A stretch of DNA of 60,682 bases. It comes from Akkermansia muciniphila. GTDB taxonomy: Bacteria; Verrucomicrobiota; Verrucomicrobiia; Limisphaerales; F1-80-MAGS106. Shown piece after piece: positions 4,669 through 60,682 of the stretch. The notes beneath the pieces were generated by a model. The model made no database searches and was not told the origin of the DNA. It saw nothing but the letters and a program-made list of their open reading frames with translations. A program made the position numbers and the translations under genes. Positions within the stretch are counted from its first letter, which is position 1; every line of letters begins with the position of its first letter. The stretch spans positions 1 through 60,682 of the forward strand of contig CAMBEJ010000011.1 in the NCBI GenBank assembly GCA_945865375.1. The letters are read 5' to 3'.

Positions 4669-7600
4669 TCAGTCTTCGGAGAAGAGGTATTCGAGATCGG
4701 ATCCAGTGAGATTCCTGGCAAAGCCTTCTTCGCCGAGCACGTCGCTGATGGCTTGCGCTTTGCGCTGTTGGAGCTCCCAGATTTTTTCCTCGACGGTGCC
4801 GGGGGCGATCAGGCGGTAGGCGTTGACGGTCTGCGTTTGGCCGATGCGATGGGAACGATCGATAGCTTGGGCCTCGACGGCGGGGTTCCACCAGGGATCG
4901 TAGAGGATGACGTAACTGGCTGTGGTGAGGTTGAGTCCGGTGCCGGCTGCGCGGAGGCTCAAAAGGAAGACGGCAGCGTTCGGATCTTCCTGGAAGGCAT
5001 TGACGGTTTCCTGTCTGTTCTTGGTTTCACCGGTGAGGATGTGCGTGGGGATCTGGCGCGCTTTGCATTCGTTTTCGAGGAGGTTGAGCATTTGCACGAA
5101 CTGGCTGAAGAGGAGAACCTTTTGGCCTTCGGCGATGAGCGGTTCGAGGAGTTCAAAAAGAGTCTCGGTTTTGCCTGACTGCGAGTCGTTGCCGACGAGC
5201 TGGGGGTGGCAGCAGATTTGGCGCAGCCTCGTGAGGGCTGCCAGGACATGGAGTTTGCTTTTTTGAATGCCTTTTTCCGCGACCGCTTTCATAACCTGCT
5301 CGCGGCTTCGGCGGAGTTCGGCGAGGTAGAGTTTCCGCTGGTCTTCTCCGAGATCGCAGTCGCGTCGTTGTTCGATGCGGTCGGGCAGATCCTTGGCAAC
5401 CTGTTGTTTGAGCCGACGCATGAGGATGGGCCGGAGTTTTGAAGCTAATGTTCGACGCGCGATGCGTTGGTCGAGCTGTGCTTCCTCGCCTCGCGACTCA
5501 TATTTGTCGCTGAACTCAGATTGATTACCGAGGTAGCCTGGCTGGATAAAGTCCACGATGCTCCAGAGGTCTAGCATCCGGTTTTCCAGGGGTGTGCCTG
5601 TGAGGGCGAGGCGGTGATCAGCCTTGAGTTGTTTGACAGACTGAGTGATTTGGGCATCTGGGTTTTTGATGAACTGAGCTTCGTCGAGGATGACTGCGGC
5701 GAAGGAGAATTTTTGAAGCGCTTCAAGGTCGCGTCGGAGGAGGGCGTAATTTGTGACGATGATATCGTGCTGGGGAATCTGTTTTCGGAGGTTGTGTCGC
5801 GCGGCCCCGCTTTCGAGGATCAGGACTTTCAAGTGTGGGGTGAACCGATTTGATTCGCGTTGCCAGTTGTGAAGGACCGACGCCGGGCAGATGACCAGCA
5901 CAGGACGGGGATTGAGCCCGCTTTGTTCGCGCATCCACGCGATCCAGGCGAGTGTTTGAAGGGTTTTTCCGAGGCCCATGTCATCGGCCAGAACGCCACC
6001 CAGGTTGATGCGGCTGAGGTGGCAGAGGAAGTTGAATCCCTCTTTTTGGTAAGGACGGAGCTCAGCCTGGACCGAGTCCGGTGTTTTGATTTCGGGGATG
6101 CCGGAAAAGTTCACTAGTTTTTGCCGGAGCAAAGCAACCTGGCCTTTGTTTGAAAATCGATTCAAGGACTCCTCATCCATGTGAGACGCGTGGGCCATGG
6201 AGACCTTTTGAGGGTCGTTACAAAGGAGCTCGATGCCCAGGTCGGCGAGGGTTTCCTTTGCGTCATGCACGGCATCCCGGTCTAGTTCGATCCAGCCGCT
6301 GTCTGGCAGTTTGACGAACCGACCTGTCGCCGTTTGGAGCCTGGCGAGGTCAGCGGGGCTGAGTTTCATCCCCTCCTGTTCCCACTCCGCGGAGACGGAG
6401 AGCCAGTCGATGCCGCTGCCGTGCAGGACAATTTTTGGGCGCAATTGGCGTGGGTTGAGGAAAAGTCTGTGGAAGGAAGGGTTGCCGAGATAAAGAGCTT
6501 CCTTAGGCTTGTCTGGCCAGGTCAGCGCGAGGCTGTTGAGAAAGTTTTCATTGGCGTCGCCGACCCATAGTCCTGGTTCCGGAGTGAACCAATCGAGGCG
6601 GCGAAGCCAATGCGTGGCGGCCTCGAGGCGGGGGTCCTCGAGGATCTCGGGCTTCCCGTCGGCTGCGAGTTTTGATTCCGTTTTCTGCCATTCATGGCCA
6701 TTCCACTGCCACATGAGGTCTTGTTTGTCGTCTTTGGCCAGGAGACGCAGGTGGACAGTGTCCTCGTTGAGCTGAAAAACGAACTGTGGCAGAGCGCTGC
6801 GAACCGTGCAGAGCTTGTCCCAGTCTCCTCCCATGGATCCCTTTGTTTTCCGAAGGTGTGTGAGCAGTCTGTGGCTGATTCTGCGCACGGAGATGGAAGG
6901 CTTTTGGTTCCAGAACTCCAGCAATTCGGTTGGCGGCATGGAGGGAAGGATGTGAAAGCTGGGCTCCTTGAGCAGGAGAGTCGGGGTTCCGGCGAAGAGT
7001 TTGACGTCGCCCAGGCCGACATGCTGACCATCGGGAAGCTCAAGCCCATGGGACAAGCATAGATCGTTCTGGTTGGATTGCAGCGAGGGAACCCACCGGG
7101 CAATCTGTCCTCCGAAAGTCAGCGTGCGATGGCTGTCACTCGCGCGCAGGCGGTTGGTTTGGCCCCAGCGAGCGAGCCATTCCAGCAGCTCGCGGCCGTT
7201 GAGGACCAGTTCATCGCGTTTATCGGTGGGTGTGTAAAGCTCACCCAGCCACTGGATGAACTGCCAGTCGGCGTGTGAGAAAAGCTCTTGTTCGTGGGTG
7301 GAACGGCTTGAGATCTCCACGATTTCACCGATGGCCCGCTGCTTTTCACCGGTTCTGGGCTTGGAGATGATCACGCGGACCAGGAGGTTGTGGAGGTGCG
7401 GGGTTTGGTCGAGGGCAGTCACCTGGCAAAGCACCTGGACGGAGGCGCGAGGAGCGTCGAGGTGGGTTGGAGTGGGGGGCATGAGCCAAGCTTCCAACAG
7501 GTCCGCCGCAGAATTCTCCTTTTCGGCTTCTTCGACCGCTGCGAAGCGTTCGAAATTGGCGTAGGCAACCAATTCGGTGGGGAGGGGTCTGTTGATTTTT

Positions 7601-7929
7601 AAAAAGAGAAGCGCCGTTTCTTCAAGTCGCGCCCTGCCTTTGGCACCCATCAGGCGGGGCCACCAATCGGTGCTCGAGAAGTCTTTGCGAGAGAGAGAGA
7701 TCTTTTCGAAGTAATCCTCGAGAAGGAGCCAAGCTCGCTGGGAATCGGCACAGTTCGCGAACAACTGAAGAATTTCCGTTCGTTCGCTTATTGAAGCTTT
7801 TGAGTCGGCGAGCTCTCGGCGCAGGTCGGCGAGGGCTCCGTAGGTTTTATCGAGCACGCCATGGTGGGCATCGTATTTTGTGCTCGTGAGGCGTGGGGTT
7901 CGACCGTTTTTGTTGGCTGCTCTAGACAT
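4669..7929 (-). CDS. SNF2/Rad54-family helicase-like ATPase
   Basis: A 1086-residue Swi2/Snf2 ATPase, a double-stranded DNA translocase. The N-terminal roughly 600 residues are a group-specific region without a motif I recognise. The ATPase core starts near residue 630 ([12 protein letters not shown]), with Walker A DDMGLGKT near 650, Walker B DEAQ near 750, and TGTPLENR shortly after. The second lobe ends with the motif HRIGQ near 1025. Its stop lies just before kdsA, so it may head the kdsA-lptB run, although its function is unrelated to LPS. Its targets are unknown; similar proteins occur widely in Verrucomicrobiota, and defence functions are known for some SNF2 proteins, but no defence neighbour is present here. 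Confidence 0.9.
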
Positions 7930-55135: not shown

Positions 55136-55510
55136 TCACAGCGAATTGGGATGCGTCTGATTCGCCCTCCCGGATTGCATGGATTCGGCCAGGGTATCGT
55201 AGATTTCGAGGATAGTGCGGTTGGTGTCGTTGATGAACTTGTCCTCGTCATTACGCTTCACGATAGGGAAGGTGTCCATGATGTAGGCCTCGGCGGCGCG
55301 GGGCGTTGGGAACGCTTGGGGCAGGAAGGCGGGTTGCTGACGCCACGACGATTCGCGGATTGAGCCTTTCATCGCTGCACGGCGAAGCAACCTAGGCCGG
55401 TGATTCATCATTCTTCGTTCAAGGATGACGCGTTTGGTGCGGTAGCCGCCGTTGAACGTGGCTTCGTCCTTGCGCTTCACGATGGGGAAGGTGTTGAGGA
55501 TAACAGCCAT
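55136..55510 (-). pseudogene. DNA methyltransferase C-terminal tail, duplicated
   Basis: The 124-codon frame carries two versions of one tail: NTFPIVKRKDEATFNGGYRT with KRVILE, and DTFPIVKRNDEDKFINDTNR with TILEIYDTLAESMQSG. This TFPIVKRKDE...RTKRVILEIYD ending belongs to large adenine methyltransferases of restriction or BREX-like systems. No catalytic motif (NPPY) is left. It starts 26 bp downstream of the UvrD gene, where a complete methyltransferase may have stood before a deletion. Confidence 0.5.
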
Positions 55511-55536: not shown

Positions 55537-57645
55537 TCATTTTTCGGATGCGAAGCGGCATACCAACAGAGAGCAGCGACCTCGCGTGGCTGCCACATAC
55601 AGCAAAGCGCGTTTTTGACGGAAGCGCTCGGACGTTTTGTCAACCGCATCCATTTCATCCAGCTTTCCGGCAAGGATGACGTGGTCGAACTCGAGTCCTT
55701 TGACGCGGTGAACAGTGGCCATGCGCAGACCAGGCACGCCCGAATCCTCGGGCTTCCCGGGCTCGATCTGGTGCACCGCCGGACATACGCGCTTAAGGTA
55801 CTTCTCGTATTCGTCCAGTTCTCGGTGGGTGCCCGCAACGACGCAAATCGTCTCAGGCCTCGCCTGTTCCTTCTCGATGAGGCGTCGGGCGTGTGCCGAG
55901 ATGGCCTCGGCGACGGCGGCCTCGTTCGGGTAGGTCTGGAGCACTGGAGGCTCCCCGTGCACCAACGAACGGACACCCTGATCATCATCGGCGCCAGCAT
56001 CCAAGTCATCGAAGGACAGCCCCTTCAGCAAACCGAGAGCCCAATTCTTCAGCTCTTCAGTCGTACGGTAGTTGATCCGGAGCTTTTTTCCACGTCCACG
56101 GATGTCGATGCCGCACCGGGCAAGTACCACCTGATGGCCGTAGATGCGTTGATGCGCGTCGCCGACCAAGAACAGATCGTTTTCAGTGGGCGGAACGAGG
56201 GCGCGGATCAGGCGGAATGCCTCATTACCGAAATCCTGAGACTCATCCACCAAGGCGGCACGGTACGGAAAAGAGATAGCTCTGGAGGCGATTAGGCGCG
56301 AAGCCGTCCGAAATGCATCGGCAGGTTCGCTGAGACCGCGTTCGTTGAGCAAAGCACGATATTCCTCAAACACCGGCCAGAGCTGTTTACGTTCCGGACG
56401 GCTGAGGCGATAAGATCGTCCGACTCGGGACACGGTCAGATAGGCGTCGCACGTTTCGATGCCGTGGGCCTGAATGACATTGTCCCATTCGCCGCGGATG
56501 AACTCCGCCGGAAAAGGCATGGGCTGAGCGGCAAGTTCCACAGCCTTTTTCCAAAGGTCATCCCGGGATGAATTCTCGTAGGTCAACTTGAGGTTGAACC
56601 CCTGCTTTTCCAAGAAGCGCCTCGACCAAGCGTCGAGGTTGACGACTTCAATGCGTTCCCATTCCTCCCGCGAACAAAGTTTTTTGAGATTGGATGCAAT
56701 GTCCGTCGCCAGATTCTTAGTGAAAGTGGTGAAAAGCACTTTTTGTCCGGGCGCACAGATGTTTTTGGCCAACCAAGCCGCGCGATGCATCGCAACCACG
56801 GTCTTGCCCGTGCCGGCGCTGCCCAAAACGCGGACAGGACCCGAGGCGCGCATCTCGACCAACCGACGTTGTGACGGGTGCAAAAAGACTCGCCACTGTT
56901 CCAGCGGAGCAGCGAGAAGTTTCTCCATTTCCGCAGCATCCGTGATGACAACGAAGTGGCGCTTGGTGCTGTCCCGATCCACGGCGGCGGCAAAATCCGA
57001 GGTGTCGATGGATGCCTGACGAACTATACAAAGTTCGGTGCGTGCTTCATCTGCCGAATACCCGGCGGCAAGCATAAAGGCGGCCTCGAAGGCCTCGCGA
57101 GGAAGGATTTTCTCCAAACGATCCAGATCATTTTCGTCTTTTATGTCGCGAACATGACTGAGTAAAGCGCTGGGGACGCCGAGTGAAATCAACTCCTCAT
57201 CAGAGAATGATTTGAATAAGGCCGGCGGTGATTTGATTTCGGGTTTTGGCGGCGCGGCGGGCGTTGCAGCCGCCATGGATTCGGCGGCGGCCTCCTGAGT
57301 CAAAACGACCTGCATGGTTCCCGTTCCAGGATGGACCGCGCAGGTTCTTCGCGTAGCCCATTGGTAAGCATCGTCATGCTTATCCACCCAAAGCAGGACA
57401 TACAAGTTGCCTTGCTCGGGCTTCAGGATGATACCCCGATAATCCTGATCAATGCGGACGGATCTCAAGTTATCATCCTTGGCCCCCTTGATTTTCTCGT
57501 AGTTGTGGGTGGCGGCAGCGGGATTGGCAGCGAAGTCGTCGAGGAAGTGGCGCGTCTTTTTTTGCTGCTTCTGAGGCAGACCGCTGAAGGCTGTGAGGAA
57601 GTCAGCCCCAAGCGCGAGTTTGATTTCATGAAAGGGGTTGCTCAT
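55537..57645 (-). CDS. RelE-like N-terminal domain fused to UvrD/Rep-type SF1 helicase
   Basis: A 702-residue protein. Residues 1-90 (FLTAFSGLPQKQQKKTRHFL, KGAKDDNLRSVRIDQDYRGI, LYVLLWVDKHDDAYQWA) have the RelE/ParE-toxin pattern. A hinge of about 100 residues rich in Ala and Pro follows. The helicase part begins near 260: Walker A GSAGTGKT (about 275), DESQDF Walker B (about 465), DAHQRIYGHQ, and motif VI RALLYVAATRGR near the end. An SF1A helicase fused to a toxin fold suggests sensing DNA or replication forks in phage defence. The ATG overlaps the stop of the DUF1998 helicase (ATGA), so the two are translationally linked. Confidence 0.85.
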   Translation of the reverse strand: MSNPFHEIKLALGADFLTAFSGLPQKQQKKTRHFLDDFAANPAAATHNYEKIKGAKDDNLRSVRIDQDYRGIILKPEQGNLYVLLWVDKHDDAYQWATRRTCAVHPGTGTMQVVLTQEAAAESMAAATPAAPPKPEIKSPPALFKSFSDEELISLGVPSALLSHVRDIKDENDLDRLEKILPREAFEAAFMLAAGYSADEARTELCIVRQASIDTSDFAAAVDRDSTKRHFVVITDAAEMEKLLAAPLEQWRVFLHPSQRRLVEMRASGPVRVLGSAGTGKTVVAMHRAAWLAKNICAPGQKVLFTTFTKNLATDIASNLKKLCSREEWERIEVVNLDAWSRRFLEKQGFNLKLTYENSSRDDLWKKAVELAAQPMPFPAEFIRGEWDNVIQAHGIETCDAYLTVSRVGRSYRLSRPERKQLWPVFEEYRALLNERGLSEPADAFRTASRLIASRAISFPYRAALVDESQDFGNEAFRLIRALVPPTENDLFLVGDAHQRIYGHQVVLARCGIDIRGRGKKLRINYRTTEELKNWALGLLKGLSFDDLDAGADDDQGVRSLVHGEPPVLQTYPNEAAVAEAISAHARRLIEKEQARPETICVVAGTHRELDEYEKYLKRVCPAVHQIEPGKPEDSGVPGLRMATVHRVKGLEFDHVILAGKLDEMDAVDKTSERFRQKRALLYVAATRGRCSLLVCRFASEK

Positions 57646-60600
57646 GTTTGTTGTGAGAGGATGGCGATGATCGTTGAAAGTTCTTGCGAACTCAGGCCGA
57701 CAGTGCCAAAGGCGAACACGCGCCACCCGGCCGCATCAAATATCTCCTGATCTGCCGCGAGTTCTGGGCCAAACACAGCAATTTTCCGGTCCGGCCAAGC
57801 CGCCTCGGCAGTAGCGGCCACTCGTCCATTCGCTTCGAGTTCGAATCCTATGACGGGCCATGCAAGCTTCTGTCGCAGCAATTGCTCAAGGAAAGAAGCG
57901 AGATTCGGATTTGCCAAATCGAAATCCGGCGGCACTTCGCCTGCGCTCCCGTCCTGCGGTTCTACCGTGGGCCGATCGGGTTCTCCGCCAGCCAGAAAGT
58001 GACGATAAGCATCCGTGATTCCGGAGAATGCTCCCGATCTACCTCCGCGGACGGTGACAATGTAAGCGTGGGGCAAAAACTGGAGTCGATTCATCAAGCG
58101 CAGGAATCCGCGCCAATGTCTGGGAAAGCCCGGCTCAAGAACCCTCTGGTCATCGTCGAAGCGCACCAACAGAAATACTCCGGACGCATCCCTTTCTTTC
58201 ACACTGGGATTCGTCGCCAAAGCCAGGGCTGCCACTTCGTCCGAACTGCATGACCCACCCAATCCATCACTCTGCTGCGCTTGCTCGAGAGTGGGTACTT
58301 CCGAGGAATCCTGAGAAAGCTTGCGCACTGCTTCGGCAGCGTTCGCGAGCGAGACGGGCTGCAACTGCCCCGCCAGTGTCAGGGTGTAAAGATATGACAA
58401 CTTTTCCCAGAATGGGCCGGTGGGACGCGTCAGAAACTCAAGAAACAAACTCCAACTGGTGCAGCTAGCGGCGCCTTGTGCGAGAACCAGCTCATCGCCT
58501 GCGAGGATTTGCCGCGCCATGTCGCTCCGGCGTTGGGCGTGGGTTTCGCCTGTAAAGGTACTGGGGATCTTGGCGGGGTCGTTTCGATACTGAATATCCT
58601 CCCAGGTAAAACTCCAAACCCAGAATTGGCCCGATCTTACTAGCGCCTGACGTTGCTGAACGTCGAGAGCGATGCGGTTGTGTCCGGAGGCCTCGTCGGC
58701 GTGAAATCTGAAGCCATCCAAGAACACGGCCACAGGACGGCACTGGTTGGGCCGCACCGGGTAGAGGACGAAATCTGGGATGGAGGGAACGTCCATACCC
58801 GGTCCGGCTGCGACGGTAATCTGAGGGGACACCTCCCAGGCAACATCAGCTCTTCGCCAAAGGAACCCAGGTTTGTTGCGTACAATCCTGCCCTGAAGCT
58901 GTGCGCCTGGGACAGTCCGCAAACTTTGAAGGAAGGATTTCTCGAGCGCGCTCTTGATGAGCGGATGGATGTCGATGTCAGAAACTCGGCTAACGGGCTC
59001 AAGTTGATCAGAATGCTGAAGAATCGTTTCCAGCAGGCGGATGGCTGTGGTGCGCGACAATCCCGCATGGTCTCGCGCGTGACGCGATTGGAGAATACAC
59101 CGATGACAGCCATCAGTGTCGTGGTCAGCTCGGGTAGCGCAAAGACACTCCTTGAGATGAACCAGGGCGCGGCGGAGGACTTCCAGAAAGACCTCCGGTT
59201 TTTGGGATAATTGCTTTAGGTAACCCGTGCCGCCGGGCACTTGGTCATAGAGCACCAAATACTTGCGGCGTTGATCCGTGCCGGGCTCGGTGCGTTCGTC
59301 AACACACCCCTTGAGGTGCTCGATGCTGCCGCGGAAATAAAGACGGAGGCCGAGATGCAAAGCCGCGACGAAGGAGGTCATGTCAGTATCCTCGTCGGTG
59401 CTGCTTGATGGCAACAACACGCGCAGCGCCTCGGAATGGAGTTCGCGGTAAAGGAACACCGCTTTGAGCGGTGCCGCGTCCTTGCCACGTTGGCGGCAGG
59501 AGAGATCGTGTTTCATTTCCTCGTCACCGTTACTGCTCTTGCGGCTCTGCACTTTTCCGCATTCTGGGCAGAGGAGAAAACCTGCGCTCGACAGATCCTT
59601 TCCTCCGAGCCGGAAGGACTCAATCTCCGGGCTGTCCTGTCCGAGGTTCACCACGCGGAAAGTAAGTTTGCCCAAGAACTCGAAGCCGAATGGGACACTG
59701 GCTCCACGAATCTGGTAAGCCTGTCGCTCGGCGTCCTCGGGAATCACAATAGACTCATGGCGATTGTAGAAAGCGGGTTCCCGTTGATCCTTATCGTCGT
59801 GACTCCGCGAGTTGCGGTCAAAGCTGGTAGAAACCACCTGACGAAGCCGCACGAGATCGCGCTTCAGAGAGGTGTCCGCCCAGTTTGGGCTTTCGCAGGC
59901 AGGGCACTCCGAGCGAGAGGGCACGGAATCGTCCACCAATGCCATATAGCTGCACGAATCGCAGAAGTGCCATTTCTGTAGCGTGTTTGCATTGACGGCC
60001 ACCTGGTCGATCTTTAGCCGTCGGCCTTCGACGTAAAAAAGACTGCCCGGCGCAAGTTCAGTAATGGCGGAAGCTGCCGGACGGACGTATTCGAAAGTGA
60101 TGGCTTGATATTTGCCCGCGTCCGACTTGGGCTGTTCGCGTCTTTTGAGGATCACACTGCGCAATTCTACTCCCTCTTCCGGAAAGGCGTAGTTGGGGAG
60201 GAGCCCTTCATCGGTGAAGAAGTTCAGTGTCAACTTGCCGTTGATCTGCTTCAGCATTTCGTGGATGCCGTCCCGACTTTGCTTGAGCTCGTCCAGCTCA
60301 CCATCAATGGCTTCGTCACGGGCAGTGGTTTCCCGATTCTTGCGAATGGCCCGGCCTACTTTCTGAAGTCGGTTGCGCAAGTCTTCGCGGTCTTCCGCTA
60401 GCCCGGAGAGCCCGGTGAGAATCTTGTGGGTCAAACCGCCATCGCCACTTCCATCTCCGCGCGCAAATCGCGCCAGCATCTGGCGTGATTCCTCGGTCAG
60501 CTCGTCCGGTTTGAATAGGACGAGGAACCCCGTAAGCAACGAATCCAGAATGGACTCGATGAATCTGAAATAGTCGTACGGAAAGCCGGACTTGCCTGCT

Positions 60601-60682
60601 GGGTTTCGGACAGCATCCAACACGCGATCTATCATGTGCGGTAGAATCGCTTTTGGGTTTGTCTGCTCGCTCCAGCGGTCGA
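57642..60682 (-). CDS. large helicase with DUF1998 and nuclease-like C-terminal domain (5' end outside window)
   Basis: The frame is open to the window edge; 1012 residues are visible and the helicase core is presumed to lie beyond it. Visible parts are a helical region with the NFFTDEGLLPNYAFPEEGVE segment (about 150), two zinc motifs (CDSCSYMALVDD with CPAC, and CPECGK with a later Cys), and the DUF1998 motif LCATRADHDTDGCHRC near residue 510. The last 450 residues include SIPDFVLYPVRPNQCRPVAV, LDGFRFHADE and an Asp/His/Gln/Arg pattern like Vsr or PD-(D/E)XK nucleases. DUF1998 helicases are parts of Druantia- and DISARM-like defence systems. It overlaps the UvrD gene by 4 bp. Confidence 0.82.
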   Translation of the reverse strand, partial: DRWSEQTNPKAILPHMIDRVLDAVRNPAGKSGFPYDYFRFIESILDSLLTGFLVLFKPDELTEESRQMLARFARGDGSGDGGLTHKILTGLSGLAEDREDLRNRLQKVGRAIRKNRETTARDEAIDGELDELKQSRDGIHEMLKQINGKLTLNFFTDEGLLPNYAFPEEGVELRSVILKRREQPKSDAGKYQAITFEYVRPAASAITELAPGSLFYVEGRRLKIDQVAVNANTLQKWHFCDSCSYMALVDDSVPSRSECPACESPNWADTSLKRDLVRLRQVVSTSFDRNSRSHDDKDQREPAFYNRHESIVIPEDAERQAYQIRGASVPFGFEFLGKLTFRVVNLGQDSPEIESFRLGGKDLSSAGFLLCPECGKVQSRKSSNGDEEMKHDLSCRQRGKDAAPLKAVFLYRELHSEALRVLLPSSSTDEDTDMTSFVAALHLGLRLYFRGSIEHLKGCVDERTEPGTDQRRKYLVLYDQVPGGTGYLKQLSQKPEVFLEVLRRALVHLKECLCATRADHDTDGCHRCILQSRHARDHAGLSRTTAIRLLETILQHSDQLEPVSRVSDIDIHPLIKSALEKSFLQSLRTVPGAQLQGRIVRNKPGFLWRRADVAWEVSPQITVAAGPGMDVPSIPDFVLYPVRPNQCRPVAVFLDGFRFHADEASGHNRIALDVQQRQALVRSGQFWVWSFTWEDIQYRNDPAKIPSTFTGETHAQRRSDMARQILAGDELVLAQGAASCTSWSLFLEFLTRPTGPFWEKLSYLYTLTLAGQLQPVSLANAAEAVRKLSQDSSEVPTLEQAQQSDGLGGSCSSDEVAALALATNPSVKERDASGVFLLVRFDDDQRVLEPGFPRHWRGFLRLMNRLQFLPHAYIVTVRGGRSGAFSGITDAYRHFLAGGEPDRPTVEPQDGSAGEVPPDFDLANPNLASFLEQLLRQKLAWPVIGFELEANGRVAATAEAAWPDRKIAVFGPELAADQEIFDAAGWRVFAFGTVGLSSQELSTIIAILSQQT

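Follow-up and report, generated by a model that had tools for sequence, protein, structure and literature searches.

Two overlapping helicase genes at a contig end

The stretch of DNA analyzed here (the window, 60682 nt) ends in two large, overlapping helicase genes, both on the minus strand. We designate their products ArmC and ArmD, following the assignment argued below. The relevant features, including the other part of armC elsewhere in the source genome, are:

57642–60682, minus strand: ArmC, YprA/DUF1998 SF2 helicase, C-terminal ca. 1012 aa, open at the contig end
59094–59366, minus strand: MZB (DUF1998) zinc-binding domain of ArmC (Pfam PF09369, E 1.1e-12)
58578–58967, minus strand: putative Vsr-like nuclease segment of ArmC, with a conserved E/D/DG/H/D/R signature
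57642–57645, minus strand: ATGA overlap of the armC stop and the armD start, from ORF reading
55537–57645, minus strand: ArmD, RelE-like domain plus UvrD/SF1 helicase, 702 aa from the ATG, carrying both Walker A K281 and Walker B D467
57292–57645, minus strand: predicted RelE-fold N-terminal domain of ArmD, from a structure model, with invariant R64, R70, H90 and Y94
55136–55510, minus strand: remains of a different N-6 DNA methylase gene (two degenerate tail-like repeats), judged to lie outside the system
G000:C1:107208-110343 (= L018:16609-19744), very end of contig C1: N-terminal 1045 aa of ArmC, matched within the source genome

ORF reading, Pfam and a RelE fold match bear out the original prediction of a DUF1998 helicase gene overlapping that of a RelE/UvrD fusion. 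The helicase part of ArmD is well supported in Pfam (UvrD N, 6e-26; UvrD C, 1e-13). Its N-terminus matches weakly there (Gp49, 4e-4, in relative L015), and the model of this domain (pLDDT 85.8) has its best PDB matches among the RelE, YoeB and YafQ toxins (TM up to 0.76 on the target), making a RelE-like fold clear at the level of predicted structure. A search for ArmD in phages found none. In ArmC, a Vsr/PD-(D/E)XK-like segment had also been proposed. Residues E9, D65, D84-G85, H89, D102 and R106 (numbering of the segment) are invariant across 21 relatives, but a PDB fold search and a profile search against solved structures returned no match, and the Vsr assignment therefore rests on the conserved motif together with the published assignment of this fold.

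The window is the whole of contig C11 from a MAG-like draft genome (93.6% complete, 266 contigs), a point absent from the original prediction, and the truncation of the helicase at position 60682 is thus an assembly effect. Extension past this position, as had been proposed, recovered the missing half of ArmC at the end of contig C1, preceded by additional genes and a remnant of ArmB; this half is 73% identical to ArmC from relative L015. From the matching single-copy halves of armC we infer that C1 and C11 are adjacent, with around 66 codons unseen between them; full-length ArmC in relatives has 2105–2147 aa.

Assignment to ARMADA type II and condition of the operon

ArmC and ArmD are 31–46% identical to products of four-gene operons of E. 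coli, Pseudanabaena and Microvirga plasmids, and there is a gene-by-gene match with four-gene operons from E. coli, Klebsiella, and cyanobacterial and alphaproteobacterial plasmids. These operons correspond to ARMADA type II (ArmA-ArmB-ArmC-ArmD), a named and experimentally tested anti-phage system (Bell et al. 2025 preprint, PMC12458937). Identity to known ArmC is 40–41% for the N-terminal half and 32–34% for the C-terminal half. A protein of about 2100 aa with a DEAD core, MZB and a Vsr-like C-terminus is present, in two halves on C1 and C11 and with the nuclease fold recognized by motif only, and is directly followed by a GajB-like UvrD helicase with an N-terminal RelE-like domain. Residues essential in the published proteins are kept in both ArmC (K110, D234) and ArmD (K266). 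The two genes are adjacent in all close relatives examined (L012–L016, L008 and others), so the expectation that they would be conserved as neighbors held. In G171, G388, G389 and G318, the four close relatives with loci that could be traced, complete ArmA and ArmB are found in the same operon. Gene order agrees with the strict A-B-C-D arrangement: ArmB remnant, cargo, ArmC and ArmD in the source genome, and A-B-cargo-C-D in relatives. The combination of the two helicases, which the original prediction did not recognize as a named system, is therefore ArmC-ArmD of ARMADA type II, named once the locus is extended.

The upstream half of the operon appears broken. In the source genome, the gene order is tmRNA, tyrosine-integrase-like gene, transposase, AbiEi-AbiEii, the C-terminal third of ArmB, cargo, armC and armD, with a scrap of an unrelated frame between AbiEii and the ArmB remnant. 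This remnant is an open frame of 439 aa, equivalent to positions 1178–1624 of E. coli ArmB, and is 81% identical to ArmB from L015 over the 212 aa shared. A full-length PglX-like ArmB with SAM and NPPW motifs occurs in relatives, whereas in the source genome both methyltransferase motifs are gone, the essential N971 and the partly needed G605 fall outside the remnant, and no further pieces of ArmB were found. Likewise, the BrxHII/RapA-like ArmA present upstream in relatives has no ortholog that we could find in the source genome, where the best SNF2 matches are partial and 26–36% identical. An SNF2 protein encoded in the window (4669–7929) was rejected as ArmA (23.7% identity over 228 aa, E 1e-6); it gives strong matches to DpdE, ZorD and DrmD models (E down to 3e-135), lies near genes for DAHP synthase and an ABC transporter, and is probably a general SNF2 protein.

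The methyltransferase tail noticed directly downstream of armD consists of two degenerate repeats that resemble such a tail, one of which matches the C-terminus of an N-6 DNA methylase (42% over 55 aa, E 1e-6). It is, however, the relic of another gene: the tails differ, and we rejected both its identification as ArmB and its origin by recombination of the ArmB tail. The island on C1 also contains a partial, apparently broken PglX-like methyltransferase fragment (L018:6958-8574; PADLOC PglXI, 2e-43).

Taken together, the region very probably represents the armC-armD (3′) half of an ARMADA II operon that was split by the assembly and is degraded in its AB part, and the site where the AB gene pair meets the CD pair serves as an exchangeable cargo slot. 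Because ArmA is missing and ArmB lacks its catalytic motifs, canonical activity has most likely been lost or is being lost, though ArmC and ArmD read intact. Neither ArmC nor ArmD evolves faster than in sister lineages, and therefore any loss was recent or the pair keeps some use. From these sequences, we read the operon as recently broken and as a degraded copy, not a complete member of the system.

The original prediction of a two-helicase defense module that lost its methyltransferase, or can act without one, holds as regards the defense module and the loss in this genome. As a stand-alone system the pair was rejected, since relatives carry ArmA and ArmB. It would be surprising if ArmC-ArmD formed a functional minimal system without them, possibly with the ArmB piece as a DNA-recognition subunit: the intact motifs, the ordinary evolutionary rate and the still open, conserved frame of the ArmB fragment would agree with it, but loss of any one of the four genes abolishes defense in E. 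coli, as reported in the preprint (PMC12458937), and both partners are retained in those close relatives whose loci were traceable. Genome G098 (L013:570-10660) likewise has ArmC-ArmD, directly preceded by AbiEi-AbiEii, and no ArmA or ArmB was found in it; there, the AbiE pair is only some 570 nt from the contig edge, so this absence carries little weight. Alternatively, the organism might possess an entire operon from which these parts were lost in assembly or binning, since ArmA and the N-terminus of ArmB could be unassembled in a 266-contig draft in which C1 and C11 both terminate within armC. We hold this to be improbable, because the truncation of ArmB is internal to C1, with the AbiE genes and the unrelated frame fragment directly upstream, and there is no second ArmB piece in the genome. 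A degraded ARMADA II operon thus remains our preferred reading.

Genes between ArmB and ArmC

The cargo of the source genome comprises, in this order, an AAA/DUF3696 ATPase (HEC-03B), a frameshifted PIN gene (HEC-03A), whose frameshift could be an error, and an RNA ligase. This trio is conserved (L018:13986-16603, L016:2189-4814), and the pairing of an RNA ligase with a PIN RNase points to a role in cleaving and repairing RNA. Upstream, the tmRNA gene precedes a GIY-YIG reading frame and then the tyrosine-integrase-like gene (L018:3110-4976; G000:C1:93709-95575), and the island bearing the ARMADA genes therefore appears to be integrated at ssrA. We did not find the far end of this island, and a search of the window for the 3′ end of tmRNA repeated as an att site gave matches of at most 14 nt.

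Extra genes occur at the ArmB|ArmC junction in nine of 19 loci, counting the source genome, and the other ten are empty; this is a small sample of convenience, in which other phyla are represented through plasmids and viral contigs only. The A|B and C|D junctions contain no cargo and are closed, or nearly so, wherever visible, the largest C|D gap being 156 nt (G171). In the complete relatives, cargo consists of a reverse transcriptase (DRT family) plus DUF6602, an AAA-PIN-RNA ligase set plus an AbiE-like pair (the latter assigned from reading the sequence, without a database match), Gabija plus an AlbA/Schlafen gene (G171), and two GmrSD enzymes. A Haematobacter plasmid carries an M78-peptidase-like gene, and further loci, contigs from viral collections among them, carry a TmtA-like gene plus DUF932, a gene of unknown function plus AlbA/Schlafen, or an unknown 284-aa gene. 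Several of these match families of embedded defense candidates: HEC-03A/B in the source genome and L016, and HEC-06 and HEC-05 in G318.

Cargo changes rapidly relative to the core. The ArmDs from the window and from L015 are sisters, yet the cargo of the two operons is wholly different. On the ArmD tree, cargo state needs six changes, at least three of them forced by strong branches, and in a shuffle test it was unclustered, as expected for rapid turnover. The alphaproteobacterial operons from Haematobacter and Martelella share around 91% DNA identity, but one of them has an additional gene between the stop of ArmB and the start of ArmC; beyond this inserted gene, the 91% identity resumes exactly at the ArmC ATG. 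Additionally, the G171 slot contains a 25-codon copy of the start of ArmC between Gabija and AlbA, and in the L108 slot about 36 codons from the end of ArmB are repeated between two cargo genes. To judge by their sequence, these duplicated core ends look like scars of repeated insertion via recombination in the flanking core genes. In E. coli, 521 of 5426 genomes matched an ArmB-ArmC junction query, with no insert among the 40 matches listed.

The ArmB genes of the operons in L045 and L083 (ca. 91% identical) are strongly diverged in their middle to late part (L083:5897-8005), suggesting that a target-recognition region adjoining the cargo slot has been exchanged. Also, in a Cylindrospermopsis plasmid (L081:8438-25111) the order of the ARMADA genes is C-D-A-B, in keeping with AB and CD being two units that can be separated.

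We put at even odds the wider proposal that ARMADA II operons have evolved an interior port between co-translated AB and CD units, through which whole second defense systems are swapped by recombination in the ends of the core genes, combining a conserved DNA-targeting core with a replaceable effector under shared expression. The genes in question could instead be ordinary defense-island clutter without any special site, given that defense genes cluster generally, that the sample is small and that inserts also flank the operon, such as AbiE upstream of the ArmB remnant. This explanation is unlikely, as all inserts within the operon lie at the same one of its three junctions, insertion is precise at the ArmC start codon and core-gene ends are duplicated in two slots.

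The outcome is a known system in a degraded copy, with the cargo slot as the new element. The helicase pair was already known from ARMADA II, and the question of its apparent novelty is closed by assignment to a named system; the embedding of defense genes was already known for Hma. The main text on ARMADA II gives a strict gene order, and we found no mention there of inserts between ArmB and ArmC (PMC12458937); nor did we find a description of ARMADA II as a cargo host, or of a slot with exchange scars, in the main texts of the openly accessible literature. The slot offers a simple route to new defense modules, any gene between ArmB and ArmC being a candidate; it shows HEC-type modules from Hma in a different host operon, and through its duplicated core-gene ends the mechanism of exchange becomes accessible to testing.

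Possible mechanism and relation to known systems

The intact system needs the ArmA SNF2 helicase, the PglX-like methyltransferase ArmB, the ArmC helicase with its Vsr-like nuclease and the RelE-UvrD helicase ArmD. ArmB would mark or recognize self DNA, while ArmA and ArmC would load onto unmarked phage DNA; by analogy with DruE, which loads on and cuts single-stranded replication intermediates (PMC13192584), ArmC would then unwind and cut the phage DNA, with ArmD assisting on DNA or RNA ends. Other defense modules enter the AB/CD junction, apparently by recombination at core-gene ends. Protection by ARMADA II in E. coli, the only species in which activity has been demonstrated, is reported as direct, non-abortive and requiring all four genes (PMC12458937).

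The locus shares with ARMADA type II the ArmC with DEAD helicase, MZB and Vsr-like C-terminus, the RelE-UvrD ArmD, the gene order, the overlapping C-D junction and the catalytic residues; it differs in that no ArmA was found in the source genome, ArmB is cut to its C-terminal third and foreign genes occupy the ArmB|ArmC junction. The best PADLOC matches of ArmC are DruE models, and DruE of Druantia type III (DruH-DruE) is a related YprA-family helicase with MZB. Here, however, there is no DruH, the nuclease is Vsr-like and not PLD, and a RelE-UvrD partner is conserved; none of the Druantia partners (DruA-D, DruH, DruM/F/G) occurs among the annotated neighbors. DISARM class 1 has in common with the full operon a DUF1998 module, an SNF2 helicase and a PglX-like methylase, but instead of separate drmA and drmB with a PLD drmC, helicase and DUF1998/MZB are fused here in one protein, no PLD match was found among the neighbors scanned, and ArmD is present.

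RelE-UvrD fusions 31–33% identical to ArmD also adjoin BPTD_3080-family restriction enzymes (L047:9010-17070, which additionally has a methyltransferase, and L085:6724-16052). These loci lack ArmC, and the fusion is thus common to another restriction-like system. Finally, defense genes embedded in host operons were published for Hma (Payne et al. 2024 preprint, as cited in PMC12988326). Those candidates resemble the cargo described here in being defense modules within a host defense operon, and HEC families are common to both, whereas the host in our case is ARMADA II and not Hma.
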